From Methanococcoides sp. (GTDB lineage: Archaea > Halobacteriota > Methanosarcinia > Methanosarcinales > Methanosarcinaceae): a stretch of 64,000 bases of DNA. The stretch spans positions 1 through 64,000 of the forward strand of contig JAIORJ010000077.1 of the NCBI GenBank assembly GCA_021108185.1, read 5' to 3'. Position numbers and translations under genes: made by a program. The number at the start of each line of letters is the position of its first letter. Within the stretch, counting starts at the first letter, position 1. The notes beneath the pieces were generated by a model. It saw nothing but the letters and a program-made list of their open reading frames with translations, was not told where the DNA came from and searched no databases. Shown in pieces: positions 34,999-55,833 of the stretch.

Positions 34999-35589
34999 TT
35001 ATTCGACCATACTTCTTCCCATCTCAAAGGCCTTCACGTTGGTATCGATGGTCTTTGGCGGTACCATCTCCTTTACGCGTTCCAGCAGTGTTTCGGTCTT
35101 TATCGGCAGGAAGTTGGAGACTGCTCCCACAAGTACTACGTTCATAGCCTGTCTGCTTCCGGCCTCAGCCGCCTTTTCGGTCGCGTTGAACGCAATTACC
35201 CTGTGGGTCTTTTTGAGTTCTGCTACGATGCTTTCCACATCAGGATACTGTGCTTTTCCAGTGGTAACTGTCACCGGATAAACTGCTTCAGTGTTCATGA
35301 TGACAACACCATCGTCTGCAAGGGAATCGATATAGCGTAGTGCTTCTACCGGTTCCAGTGCAAGAAGACAGTCTGCGCCTTTGAGGGGGATTATGGATCC
35401 AAGGTCACAGCCGATACGTACATGGTTGACCACTGAACCGCCACGTTGTGCCATTCCGTGAGTTTCCGCTGCACGAACTCCGTAGTTCTCAATAACTGCG
35501 GACCTTCCGATGATGTCTGAAGCGAGGATAGCTCCCTGTCCACCGACACCTGATATTACAAGATCGAACTTAGATGCCTTACTGCTCAT
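34999..35589 (-). CDS. iorB: Indolepyruvate:ferredoxin oxidoreductase beta subunit
   Basis: 196 residues. ISGVGGQGAILASDIIGRSA near the start and AETHGMAQRGGSVVNHVRIG are the pyruvate-ferredoxin-oxidoreductase gamma-domain signatures of IorB. It partners with IorA to oxidise aryl pyruvates (from aromatic amino acids) to aryl-acetyl-CoA, or the reverse for aromatic amino acid synthesis from aryl acids. Its ATG overlaps the iorA stop by ATGA, so the two are translationally coupled. Confidence 0.95.
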   Translation of the reverse strand: MSSKASKFDLVISGVGGQGAILASDIIGRSAVIENYGVRAAETHGMAQRGGSVVNHVRIGCDLGSIIPLKGADCLLALEPVEALRYIDSLADDGVVIMNTEAVYPVTVTTGKAQYPDVESIVAELKKTHRVIAFNATEKAAEAGSRQAMNVVLVGAVSNFLPIKTETLLERVKEMVPPKTIDTNVKAFEMGRSMVE

Positions 35590-37391
35590 TTCTGAATCTC
35601 CTTTATCGCATCGAATTTACATACTTCTGCACACAGTCCACATCCGGTGCACATTGCATTGATAGTAGACTTCTTGGTCTCCTTGTCAAATTCAATTGCA
35701 GGGCAGCCAAGGTTCACACACATCCTGCAGCCTACACACTTATCGTGGTCAACCTTGAATGGTATCAGCCTGACACCTGTTCTGCGTGCGTAGATGATGC
35801 AGGGCTGTTTTGATATGATAACCGATGTGCCTTCGTAATCCTTTGCACGTTTGAATGCTTCGATCGTTGCTTTCACATCGAATGAATCGACAACTTCGAC
35901 GAAGTCGGCACCGAGTCCGCGACAGAGCTGTTCAAGATCGATCTCCTTTGTGGCCTCGCCTGTGGATGTCAGTCCCATACCAGGGTTTGGCTGGTGACCG
36001 GTCATTGCGGTGATGCGGTTGTCCAGAATTGCAACTGTGATGTTCGCCTTATTATATACTGCATTGAGCAATCCGTTCATTCCGGTATGGAAGAACGTTG
36101 AATCTCCAATGGAACAGCAGATCGGCTGCTTTTCACCAGAGTGATAGATACCTGATGCAACCGGGATACTGCCTCCCATGCACAAGGTAGTGTCCACGGT
36201 CCCGTTCTGTATTCCCAGTGTGTAACATCCAATATCACTTGGGAAGACAGCATTCTTGCCAAATACCTTTTTCATGGCATAGTAGGTAGATCTGTGGGAA
36301 CAACCTGCACACATTGCAGGTGGCCTTGGTGGCAGTTCCATCTCGATCTCCTTGATCTCCGGCAGACCTGATTCGATGTCGAAAACATCTGCGATGGCTT
36401 TCACGCAATGGTCAACATTAAGTTCGCCGACCCTTGGAACAGTGCCATCTGTCTTTCCGATGATCTTGACGTTGCTTTCCATGTCCTTTGCAATGATCTT
36501 GCAACGGTCTTCCACAATAGGCTCAAGTTCTTCGATGACGAGAACGGTATCTACCTGCTCGTACATCTTTTTGATAAGTCCTTCAGGGACAGGGTATGCA
36601 CCGATCTTCAAGTATGATGCGGATACGCCCAGGTTCTCAATTGCTTCTTTTGCATAGACCGAAGCAATACCTGCTGCGATGACTCCTATCTTGGAGTCCT
36701 CATTGATTGTAAGTTCGTTCCATGGTGATGTCTCAAGCTCTTCCCTGATGCCATCCTGTATTGAAAGAAGGTGGGGATGCCTGACAACCGCATTGCTTGG
36801 GACCATTACCCAGCGGGATGTGTCCTTTTCGAACTTGGCTTGGACTCTGTGTTCAGTGATCTCACCAAGTTCGATATCTGCCTTACCGTGGGATATCCTG
36901 GTGGTAGGTCTGAATATGACCGGAAGCTCGAACTTCTCGGAAAGCTCAAAGGCATAAGGTAACATGTCCTTTGCTTCCTGTGGAGTAGAAGGGTCAAGAC
37001 ATGGCATGAGTGAGAATTCTGAATATATACGTGTGTCCTGTTCATTCTGGGATGAGTGACATCCCGGATCGTCAGCCACAATAATGACCATTCCGCCCTT
37101 TACTCCCATGTATGACAGTGTCATAAGAGGGTCTGCTGCAACGTTCAGACCTACGTGTTTCATGGTTACCACAGAACGCACACCAGTCATGGCAGCTCCT
37201 GCAGCAACTTCCATTGCAACTTTTTCATTAACGGACCATTCGACATAAAAGTCGCGTTCCTTCATTTTGGACAACGTATCGACGATCTCAGAAGAAGGCG
37301 TACCCGGATATCCGGAAATGACACGTCCTCCTCCTTCCACGATACCGCGTGCGATCGCTACGTTACCAAGCATATACTCGCGTGTGCTCAT
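35586..37391 (-). CDS. iorA: Indolepyruvate:ferredoxin oxidoreductase alpha subunit
   Basis: 601 residues. The N-terminal pyrimidine-binding domain has GYPGTPSSEIVDTL, and the TPP site is GDSTFFHTGMNGLLNAVYNK with TAMTGHQPNPG. The C-terminus carries two [4Fe-4S] clusters: CVGCRMCVNLGCP and CTGCGLCAEVC. With IorB it forms the complete enzyme using thiamine pyrophosphate, CoA and ferredoxin. First gene of the iorAB pair. Confidence 0.96.
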   Translation of the reverse strand: MSTREYMLGNVAIARGIVEGGGRVISGYPGTPSSEIVDTLSKMKERDFYVEWSVNEKVAMEVAAGAAMTGVRSVVTMKHVGLNVAADPLMTLSYMGVKGGMVIIVADDPGCHSSQNEQDTRIYSEFSLMPCLDPSTPQEAKDMLPYAFELSEKFELPVIFRPTTRISHGKADIELGEITEHRVQAKFEKDTSRWVMVPSNAVVRHPHLLSIQDGIREELETSPWNELTINEDSKIGVIAAGIASVYAKEAIENLGVSASYLKIGAYPVPEGLIKKMYEQVDTVLVIEELEPIVEDRCKIIAKDMESNVKIIGKTDGTVPRVGELNVDHCVKAIADVFDIESGLPEIKEIEMELPPRPPAMCAGCSHRSTYYAMKKVFGKNAVFPSDIGCYTLGIQNGTVDTTLCMGGSIPVASGIYHSGEKQPICCSIGDSTFFHTGMNGLLNAVYNKANITVAILDNRITAMTGHQPNPGMGLTSTGEATKEIDLEQLCRGLGADFVEVVDSFDVKATIEAFKRAKDYEGTSVIISKQPCIIYARRTGVRLIPFKVDHDKCVGCRMCVNLGCPAIEFDKETKKSTINAMCTGCGLCAEVCKFDAIKEIQK

Positions 37392-37487: not shown

Positions 37488-37568
37488 GTTGTTGTATATG
37501 TATTATTGTTATGGATAAAAAGATTAAGAGCATTAACCTATAAACTTAGTCAATACCTACGATGAAGC

Positions 37569-38153
37569 TTAAATGTGCTTCATCATGATCAATGCTTTTT
37601 TTCTTTCTCTTCCGATTTGGTACATCCCTTCACCGCAAATTGCATATCCCCACTTCAGGTAAATTTCCTGAGCAGTAGTACTGCCACTCCCAACACGTAA
37701 CCATACTGTCTTGAATCCCTGTTGTTGAAATACAGATTCTCCATATCCGGATAGAAGCTTCCCGACTCCCTTTCCCCTATATTTGTTCTAAACATAAAGA
37801 CGCTGCATCTCTATTGGTGTATCACCCACCACACAATCCGGTAATTCAGAGTTTACAAATTTTGCATAGCCACATATTACACCCTTTGCGTTTTTACAGA
37901 GCAAATAAAGAGCTTCTGAGTTTTCGATCTCATGTCTTATCAGCTCTTCTGAAAAGGCTTCTTCCACATAAGTCCTAAGGTCTTCTATCGGAACACGTGT
38001 TCGATATGCATCTATAAATGAGCTTTTCCCGAATTCGGAAAGAAAGCTTACATGTGACAAATTGGCGTGTACAATATCAAGCGTTTTCAGAGATTCGATC
38101 TCCATCTTTTCATGCTTGGATATGTCCATATTGTTTCCAACCTCTGCAAACAT
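37569..38153 (-). CDS. GNAT acetyltransferase with in-frame UAG (candidate pyrrolysine)
   Basis: The minus-strand frame runs 194 codons from ATG 38153 (or an inner ATG at 38129 or 38105) to TAA at 37569-37571, with a single TAG at 37788-37790 (codon 122). Before it, GYAKFVNSE and MQRLYV are the GNAT beta-4 strand; directly after it, NKYRGKGVGKLL is motif A, the acetyl-CoA pyrophosphate loop, then WLRVGSGSTTAQEIYLKWGY (motif B). I checked every downstream codon: no other stop or shift. In Methanosarcinaceae UAG can encode pyrrolysine, so this may be one protein. The UAG sits in a variable loop position. Alternatively it is a pseudogene with one nonsense mutation. Confidence 0.7.
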
Positions 38154-38357
38154 TTATTGATCTCAATACTTTTGTATTAACTTATAGGTCTTTGATTACT
38201 GCAGATACTGATATTATACTCTCTGTACTATGGATCATTTTTTGGAAGAACAGCAAAACGGAAGGAAAATATTTCGTGTGATAGCATCCCTTTTTGGGTC
38301 CATAAGCGACAGTATAAGGTACATTTAGGCAACAATAAAATAATAATTGAAGACAAG

Positions 38358-38561
38358 TCAATTGTTTGTAGAATCAGAGATATTTGATACATTATTCAAA
38401 TAAGACGGATCCAAAGAATCAAGAGCATTCTGAATTCCAGGAAGTGGATCCGGATATGTTGTGGGTGATTTCGTGCTGTCTATTACTTCGCCATCGTCTT
38501 CTCTCACGATCACAGCATCGGTGTATGTGCCACCGGCATCAATTCCAAGTCCGTAGTTCAT
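38358..38561 (-). pseudogene. N-terminal fragment of hydantoinase/oxoprolinase-type ASKHA gene
   Basis: 67 codons from ATG 38561 beginning MNYGLGIDAGGTYTDAVIVR, the phosphate-1 motif of the HyuA/ASKHA fold, then TGA. Complete members have over 500 residues, so only the first tenth remains. A GGGGGA ribosome binding site is still present before the ATG. No matching remainder is seen to the left. Probably a deletion remnant. Confidence 0.6.
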
Positions 38562-40638: not shown

Positions 40639-42276
40639 TCAAAAGGATTTGTTTTCAAAAGCTATTGGAATTCTAAATGTGAACGTACTTCCTTTTCCAA
40701 CTTCGCTATCAACCCAGATATTTCCACCGTGCATTTCAACAAACTTATCGACAAGTGCAAGGCCGAGACCGGTGCCCTCATACTCTCTAGAATTTGAAGA
40801 ATCCACCTGATAGAACGGGTTGAACAGTTTATCCTGATAATTTGCTGAAATACCGATTCCACTATCCTTCACAAAAACAGAAATTATCTCATCAGTTGTA
40901 TTAATTCCCATTGTCACAGATCCTCCTTGATCAGTGAATTTAATGGCATTGCTCACGAGGTTGTAAAGTATCTGTTTGAATTTTACTGAATCTGCCACAA
41001 TAATAGGATTTTCAACATTAATGCTATAGTTTAGTTCAATCTCTTTCTTCATTGCAAGAGGCATCATTGTCTCTTTTATTTCATTGATAGCATCTTGAAT
41101 AGCAAACTCTTCAAGGATAAGCTCCATCTTACCAGCTTCGATCTTTGAGAAATCCAAAAGATCATTGATTAGCCCCAAAAGATGCTTTCCACTTCTAAGA
41201 ACATTAGATATGTATTTCTTCTGAGATTCATTCAAGGTACCAAAGTTCTCACAGATAAGTAGATCTGAGAAACCAATGATCGAAGTAAGAGGAGTTCGAA
41301 GTTCATGGCTCATATTTGAGATGAATTCGCTCTTGGTACGATTTGCATCTTCGGCAGTAAGTTTTGCTTGTAGCATTGCTTCCTGTGCTTTCTTGCGCTC
41401 GGTAATATTATCGAATGCTACCCCTACACAATTATTTGGTAAGGGAAAGACCTTGACTGAAAATGTATTCTCAAGAACTCGTTCATCACCATAGTAAATA
41501 TCTTCCAAGACTCTGGACTGACCAGTCCGAACAACTTCTGCATAAGTCTGTGGAATATCCTTCTCTCTGAGACCGGGAAAAATCTCATCTAAAGTATTTC
41601 CAAGGATAACTTCATTGGGAACACCTGTAAAATCAGAAGCTGCTGGATTTGCAGCTATCAGCCTGAGAGTTCTATCATCATCTAAGTTCTCTAAATAATA
41701 TACATAAAGCCCTATTCGCACATTCTCGAAGATGTCTGCATACTGTTGAATGGCCTTTTCCGCTTTTACAGAAGCTTCTAGCACTTTTTTTTCAGCAAGC
41801 TTCTGTTCTGTAATATCATCTGCAATGAGCAAAACTGTTGATTCATTGTTTTGTTTTATCAAGATCGTTGAAATTATAAGATGAAGTGTTGCAGACCGGT
41901 CATTGGTCATTATTTCCAATTCACCTTCCTTTTTGTAAATGTTCTCACCGGTCTCAAAAGTGTGCATTACAGAGTTTCGCACAGTACATTCTGAGCATTC
42001 TCTGTTTTTTCCACACCCTTCTTCTTTTAACGAATTCATACATCCAAACAATTCGCCACCAAGGAGATCAACACAATCTTTTTTTTCTTTTCCTAATTTA
42101 ATAGAAGCAGCACGATTGATGTTTTCAATTTTCCCGTCCGTATTGACAAGAATCATAGTTAATGGGATATGATCAAAAATAGAATTTAAGATGCTAGGAT
42201 CCATAAGAGATTCAGCTGGAATTTTACAAGATTCGTCGACCTTGATGTCATTCAGAATTTTTTCACTTCTAACCAT
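40639..42276 (-). CDS. Soluble PAS-PAS sensor histidine kinase
   Basis: 545 residues without membrane helices. PAS domain 1 (about 30-155) contains an unusual cysteine cluster: GCMNSLKEEGCGKNRECSEC at about 78-97. PAS domain 2 (about 175-295) is followed by the histidine kinase core: H-box FISNMSHELRTPLTS near 320, N-box NLVSNAIKFTD, G1 VKDSGIGIS, and GTGLGLALV. No receiver domain is attached and no response regulator is next to it. The cysteines could hold heme or a metal or sense redox state. It lies between two copies of repeat R1. Confidence 0.9.
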   Translation of the reverse strand: MVRSEKILNDIKVDESCKIPAESLMDPSILNSIFDHIPLTMILVNTDGKIENINRAASIKLGKEKKDCVDLLGGELFGCMNSLKEEGCGKNRECSECTVRNSVMHTFETGENIYKKEGELEIMTNDRSATLHLIISTILIKQNNESTVLLIADDITEQKLAEKKVLEASVKAEKAIQQYADIFENVRIGLYVYYLENLDDDRTLRLIAANPAASDFTGVPNEVILGNTLDEIFPGLREKDIPQTYAEVVRTGQSRVLEDIYYGDERVLENTFSVKVFPLPNNCVGVAFDNITERKKAQEAMLQAKLTAEDANRTKSEFISNMSHELRTPLTSIIGFSDLLICENFGTLNESQKKYISNVLRSGKHLLGLINDLLDFSKIEAGKMELILEEFAIQDAINEIKETMMPLAMKKEIELNYSINVENPIIVADSVKFKQILYNLVSNAIKFTDQGGSVTMGINTTDEIISVFVKDSGIGISANYQDKLFNPFYQVDSSNSREYEGTGLGLALVDKFVEMHGGNIWVDSEVGKGSTFTFRIPIAFENKSF

Positions 42277-55189: not shown

Positions 55190-55530
55190 GTCTTTGTTTA
55201 TGATGAACAAGGTTGTATATATTCCTGAAAATTATTTCGAATAATAAATTATAATTAAAGTCATTAGAAATGTATATGAGTGTTTCTTCTTCCAGTCATC
55301 TAATATTAATTTAAAATCGCTATTTTTTATGAATCTCAAATAATGTGTGCAGAGTTTAATGTAAAATGGTTCTTATGATGGTGAATGAAAATATTATGGC
55401 TAACTATAATCTTGCTTTAAAGTTTAAATATAATTAAATTTCATTTCTAGAATTATTTAAACAAAGTAAAAAATTTATTTAAGCGAATAGTACACTAATT
55501 ATCATGGTGTATAAGTGGGGGGATTTATCA

Positions 55531-55833
55531 CTAGTTGGTTAAAGCATGAATTTTACCGTCATATTCTATTTTTTTAACTGCTGATTCTTTAGAGATGCTG
55601 GATATATCTTTTACTGAAATAGAACCTGAAACAATTAAGATAGGTCCTTCTATCACATTTTCAATTTTAAGTCCCAAATTCTTCAATGTATTCTTTGCAT
55701 CTTCAAGATCTGCATTTTCATCCAGATGAATTATAACTCGAGTTTGTTCATCAGAGGATGTCTGTATATTTTCTTTTATTATAGTGGATAATTCCTCAGA
55801 AATCTTAGAATTTGAAATATTCCCCACCTCCAA
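55531..55833 (-). CDS. Stand-alone I9/subtilisin-propeptide-like protein
   Basis: About 100 residues. TRVIIHLDENADLEDAKNTL, LKNLGLKIENVIEGPILIVS and SAVKKIEYDGKIHALTN follow the ferredoxin-like pattern of inhibitor I9 domains, which fold and inhibit subtilases. No peptidase domain follows. The start is unclear: the frame has only a TTG at 55833 or a GTG within the GGAGGTGGGG ribosome binding site; an ATT 13 nt downstream is the best-spaced codon. The gene ends in TAG directly followed by TGA. Intergenic stretches 55211-55530 and 55834-56180 hold nothing else. Confidence 0.5.
   Translation of the reverse strand: MEVGNISNSKISEELSTIIKENIQTSSDEQTRVIIHLDENADLEDAKNTLKNLGLKIENVIEGPILIVSGSISVKDISSISKESAVKKIEYDGKIHALTN

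Follow-up and report, generated by a model that had tools for sequence, protein, structure and literature searches.

An acetyltransferase gene of Methanococcoides with an in-frame UAG codon that is probably read as pyrrolysine

The acetyltransferase gene and its protein

A gene of the GNAT acetyltransferase family lies on the minus strand of a 64,000 nucleotide stretch of Methanococcoides sp. (assembly GCA_021108185.1, contig JAIORJ010000077.1, positions 1 to 64,000), referred to here as the window, and is interrupted by one in-frame TAG. The frame runs from 38153 to 37569 and consists of 194 codons followed by TAA, with the TAG as its sole internal stop, preceded by QRLYV and followed by NKYRGKGVG. 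An earlier sequence-only reading of the window had described this frame in the same way, and had proposed that the UAG is read through as pyrrolysine (Pyl) and that the truncated product would be useless and the full one complete. The coordinates of all features are listed in Table 1. The window's genome is labelled G000, and G002, G005, G008, G009 and G010 are other Methanococcoides genomes.

The ATG at 38129 appears likelier as the start of the gene than that at 38153, because GAGGTTGG stands before it and the start of the G010 relative aligns there, and because this relative, when read from the region of the first ATG, meets a TGA. Translation from 38129 gives 186 residues with the TAG at residue 114, and translation from 38153 gives 194 residues with the TAG at residue 122.

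The read-through protein matched Pfam Acetyltransf_1 (PF00583; 1.5e-9, 38.6 bits against a cut-off of 20.7), and the R/Q-x-x-G-x-G/A loop of GNAT acetyltransferases is present as R-G-K-G-V-G, presumably the acetyl-CoA loop. The portion downstream of the TAG still gave a GNAT match of 23.8 bits when searched alone, and the portion upstream (121 amino acids from the longer start) gave no match in the domain search, in keeping with the proposal that only the full product is complete. A structure model, built with Lys standing in for Pyl, has a complete GNAT fold with a mean pLDDT of 88.6. Numbered from 38153, it has a strand at residues 113–121, then the TAG codon, and a few residues on the acetyl-CoA loop (R126–G131).

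The best matches of the model among solved structures in the PDB are 8osp and PaiA (1tiq). PaiA, the spermidine/spermine N-acetyltransferase of Bacillus subtilis (1TIQ), also ranks first by sequence among the solved structures (phmmer 1.3e-14), shares the fold (Foldseek TMt 0.89) and has Lys at the position equivalent to the UAG, at an identity of only about 23%. The NCBIfam equivalog model for PaiA (NF053587) scored 76.3 bits against a cut-off of 250; equivalence to PaiA is not established by this score, and by sequence the protein may be called PaiA-like only. It is presumably an active enzyme, and the likeness to PaiA suggests a substrate of polyamine type. A relative in Candidatus Competibacteraceae (L041, RXIW01000045.1) is 39% identical, against 22–28% for other full-length bacterial matches, which hints at transfer between bacteria and Methanosarcinaceae.

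Table 1. Features of the window at and around the acetyltransferase gene, with positions in the window.
Feature	Position	Strand	Remarks
PaiA-like GNAT acetyltransferase coding sequence, putatively read through UAG	37569..38129	-	putative Pyl at 114, then TAA; alternative start 38153
In-frame TAG	37788..37790	-	alignment; TAG likewise in the G010 orthologue
Presumed acetyl-CoA (pyrophosphate) loop R-G-K-G-V-G, directly downstream of the TAG	37761..37778	-	translation and structure model
TAA, true stop of the GNAT gene	37569..37571	-	sequence
Shine-Dalgarno-like stretch GAGGTTGG ahead of ATG 38129	38134..38144	-	by eye
iorA, indolepyruvate ferredoxin oxidoreductase alpha, downstream neighbour of the GNAT gene	35586..37391	-	conserved locus, outside the recoding
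Segment holding the GNAT gene, 1,021 bp	37501..38521		absent in G008
Dispersed repeat, about 92 bp, upstream of the GNAT gene	38213..38304		copies in G001, G003, G007, G009, G010
Small open reading frame, 100 amino acids, TTG start, ends in TAG followed at once by TGA	55528..55833	-	TAG of the gene placed at 55531 in the sequence-only reading

The TAG codon in relatives and the selection around it

A close homologue was found in 8 of the 112 genomes of the family. The nearest orthologue, 75–76% identical and from another Methanococcoides species (G010), has TAG at the same codon. Since this genome was sequenced separately, a sequencing error at the TAG, named earlier as a way in which the read-through proposal could fail, was rejected. 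CAG (Gln) stands at this codon in the paralogous copies, namely the second copy of the window's own genome (contig C14) and those of G002 and G008, while other genera have AAG, AAA, AGG or ATG. The two copies with TAG are monophyletic (support 100/98). The UAG would thus most likely be of common origin, through one C-to-T change of CAG in the ancestor of the G000 and G010 copies, independent origins being conceivable as well. A piece of the gene in G005 was not accepted as a further orthologue at the TAG, as it covers just the 3' part beyond this codon.

The two TAG copies differ by a dS of about 0.7. Their dN/dS was 0.15 overall; it was 0.12 upstream of the TAG and 0.21 downstream, the Fisher p for the downstream part being 1.2e-5. 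A purpose-written codon model gave a joint omega of 0.28 for the two tips downstream of the TAG, with omega = 1 rejected (2dlnL 11.4), and 0.21 for the G010 tip alone (2dlnL 8.2). In a neutral simulation, both copies stayed without TAA or TGA across the 72 codons after the TAG with P = 0.03, and over 165 codons with P = 0.001. In the pair, then, the in-frame UAG is conserved and the coding sequence is under selection on both sides of it. The constraint after the TAG is demonstrated for the pair and for the G010 species; the window copy taken singly does not demonstrate it, its branch being too short for a decision. Sense codons in all close orthologues, combined with relaxed selection on this copy, had been named earlier as a finding against read-through. 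The closest orthologue instead shares the TAG and the pair is under purifying selection downstream of it, while the window's own branch after the TAG is uninformative.

The gene does not have a fixed place in the genus. In G008, the flanks of the segment (37500 and 38522) are directly joined at a TGTAT microhomology, and other content replaces the segment at the same locus in G002, G005 and G009. The G010 copy lies at another locus, the one at which G005 has its 3' piece. Judged by these placements, the gene appears to be accessory and movable. Two pairs of direct repeats nearby, 39638–39773/42611–42746 (96%) and 37416–37487/42794–42865 (94%), bracket a histidine-kinase gene at 40639–42276.

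UAG decoding and UAG use in Methanococcoides

The absence of pyl genes had been named as a finding that would count against read-through; pylT, pylS, pylB, pylC and pylD are clustered on contig C4 of the window's genome. PylS, at 434 bits, scored above its curated cut-off and is present in all 11 Methanococcoides genomes examined, and the frames beside pylS read as PylB, PylC and PylD. The pylT gene was recognised by eye from its anticodon-loop pattern, as a tRNA gene with a CTCTAAA loop at about L003 8335–8406; it was not reported by an Rfam scan of the pyl locus, and an ARAGORN scan of the window gave no tRNA. The conserved part of pylB (L003 5778–6968, minus strand) ends at a TAG, after which about 45 more sense codons overlap pylC, so that this TAG is either a UAG stop or part of an extended, Pyl-containing PylB. 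The TAG of pylB was cited in 2010 as a UAG acting as a stop (PMC2933860).

Stop codons were counted in samples of 400–464 kb per genome, using greedy open reading frames (ORFs) of at least 150 amino acids. In the window's genome only 2 of 342 ORFs in 464 kb (0.6%) end in TAG, one a histidine kinase with a HATPase domain that extends past the TAG and the other apparently antisense. The counts were 3/288 in G010 (one kinase and two mtmB genes whose codon 202 is TAG) and 3/287 in G005, compared with 6/216 in G020 and 29/272 (10.7%) in G058 of a related genus, where mostly another stop lies within about 30 codons. Six of the eight TAG-ended ORFs in the three Methanococcoides genomes look by translation like read-through cases (two mtmB, three histidine kinases and one membrane protein); the other two are the apparently antisense one and an ambiguous one of 189 amino acids. 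Almost none of these apparent UAG ends looks like a true stop. The window itself has no such ORF ending in TAG, and the one gene there for which a UAG end had been noted is the small ORF of Table 1 (no NCBIfam match), the claim that UAG is avoided as a stop being borne out in both respects. By these counts UAG is practically not a terminator for ORFs of this length, the TAG of pylB calling for caution.

A clade of histidine kinases carries a TAG throughout the genus. TAG was present in 20 of the 20 best matches, which span all 11 Methanococcoides genomes, and at the identical codon in all 19 loci that were read (L155–L172 and L177; e.g. G000:C2:16016–16741). It lies within the HATPase domain (LKFTPENGCI-TAG-IN). 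Paralogues have Ser, Thr, Cys or Trp at this codon, and the matches from other genera that come next in rank all lack the TAG. A survey of 2013 listed in-frame UAG for a cluster of histidine kinases from M. acetivorans, M. mahii and M. barkeri (PMC3639795). The clade is a stronger candidate than the acetyltransferase for selected use of Pyl. With further kinases and the membrane protein, it makes up a set of many non-methyltransferase genes with internal conserved UAG.

Given the scarcity of TAG-ended ORFs and the kinase TAG kept across the genus, UAG acts like a sense codon nearly everywhere in Methanococcoides. The sequence-only reading had held Pyl outside methylamine methyltransferases to be rare, which for this reason does not appear to apply to the genus. 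Additional read-through candidates were seen in a PAS histidine kinase whose codon 85 is TAG (G000:C6:47417–49477) and, in G005, in a cytochrome-biogenesis-like membrane protein and another kinase (G005:C1:1126041–1126583 and 1029379–1030080, both on the minus strand).

In the mechanism proposed here, the UAG of the acetyltransferase would be decoded by a Pyl-tRNA(CUA) supplied by pylT, pylS and pylBCD, and the ribosome would insert Pyl and continue to the TAA. No special signal would be needed, UAG being almost never a gene end in the genus and so presumably a sense codon throughout. The codon borders the CoA-binding loop, at a variable Lys/Gln/Arg/Met position that may tolerate a long side chain resembling that of lysine. 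A PYLIS-like RNA fold after the UAG was sought and not found: folding z-scores were -0.95 and -0.12 and the predicted structures differ, the G010 stretch used starting a few bases past its TAG. PYLIS-dependent recoding was rejected on the grounds that no structure after the UAG is either stable or conserved, and according to a review no cis element is required for Pyl insertion (PMC8211752). An altered release factor was likewise rejected, since the aRF1 motifs do not differ from those of a relative in which UAG serves as a stop, and for this reason the scarcity of UAG stops is probably due to codon avoidance and competition by Pyl-tRNA.

Weighing of the readings and comparison with known systems

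We consider it most likely that the acetyltransferase gene is an intact accessory gene of a Methanococcoides species with a UAG in its middle that is read as Pyl. Insertion of Pyl at this UAG, by way of genome-wide UAG reading, is probable because the pyl genes are present, the orthologue shares the TAG, the sequence downstream is constrained in the pair and UAG ends are rare; the computational evidence is to this extent in favour of the original proposal.

Several observations weigh against this reading. The gene with TAG is found in only 2 of 11 Methanococcoides genomes. The G010 copy has a further TAG at residue 40 and carries substitutions at two glycines that are invariant elsewhere (G127V, within the CoA loop, and G169E), and only a decayed 3' piece remains in G005, so that the gene would be dispensable. 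On the window branch, omega after the TAG went to its upper bound (2dlnL 3.35 against the one-ratio model, p about 0.07) and is not distinguishable from 1 (2dlnL 0.5), the branch being short; the polarised changes there, seven non-synonymous and two synonymous, lean towards relaxation. Moreover, the NIKS and YxCxxxF motifs of the release factor are unchanged, and some termination at UAG may therefore occur. The first three of these, together with the variable insertion site, could be explained by a young or decaying pseudogene, in which the TAG, or two separate TAGs, broke an accessory copy whose remainder has not yet decayed. We regard this as unlikely: the same codon was hit in two species whose copies group together, both frames are free of TAA, TGA and frameshifts, the pair and the G010 branch both show constraint after the TAG, and a UAG alone would not inactivate a gene in Methanococcoides.

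The unchanged release factor would also fit a UAG that is a real or partly efficient stop, with a selected N-terminal product of 113–121 amino acids and leaky read-through. The window branch is indeed more constrained upstream of the TAG (omega 0.05) than downstream, and in M. acetivorans an introduced UAG acted mostly as a stop, with 20–30% read-through (PMC2933860). Such a product would however lack the CoA loop and any domain match, and the constraint downstream in the pair and the genome-wide lack of UAG stops make this alternative very improbable. Near-cognate decoding or misacylation could place a standard residue such as Gln or Lys at the UAG, and both occupy the position in relatives; as UAG codons of the mtmB type are read as Pyl in relatives (PMC2933860), we give this the least credence and consider it extremely improbable. 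If Pyl is inserted, it is probably tolerated at the loop rather than needed, by analogy with Thg1, and would be a nearly neutral residue. That it is kept for a reason, by tuning the enzyme or by making its synthesis dependent on Pyl supply and so coupling acetylation (perhaps of polyamines) to methylamine metabolism, within a wider set of Pyl-dependent regulators including the kinase clade, seems to us very improbable.

In Thg1 of M. acetivorans, the tRNA-His guanylyltransferase described by Heinemann et al. 2009, Pyl was observed and judged non-essential (PMC2933860). Thg1 and the acetyltransferase are alike in having an in-frame UAG where relatives have a sense codon, in being compatible with Pyl and in not being methyltransferases, the use of Pyl in Thg1 being interpreted as neutral. 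They differ in that the UAG of Thg1 is confined to M. acetivorans and its Pyl was physically observed, whereas the UAG of the acetyltransferase occurs in two species and is known here from the genes alone. Kivenson and colleagues reportedly described, in Science in 2025, a Pyl code of archaea under which every UAG stands for Pyl, and Methanococcoides burtonii is said to have been among the organisms examined. The Methanococcoides genomes analysed here resemble that code in the near-absence of UAG stops and in the sense UAG codons of many genes.

The acetyltransferase adds a named candidate for a Pyl protein outside methylamine metabolism, as one more case of a recoding that is already known and not of a new mechanism. 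Genes of this sort would be broken up or labelled as pseudogenes by standard annotation, and the protein inventories of these methanogens are therefore incomplete. Conserved UAG codons, above all that of the histidine kinases, offer places to distinguish neutral from selected use of Pyl.

The methylamine methyltransferases MtmB, MtbB and MttB have the decoding machinery and an in-frame UAG in common with the acetyltransferase, and the TAG at codon 202 of mtmB was found in G010. Their Pyl is catalytic and conserved, whereas that of the acetyltransferase would lie at a variable loop-edge position, with Gln, Lys, Arg or Met in relatives, and not at an invariant catalytic one. A full-length MtmB homologue without TAG is present in the window's genome (L102, G000:C44:3989–5338), where the other mtmB matches are no more than short fragments, and one of these lies right where a contig begins.
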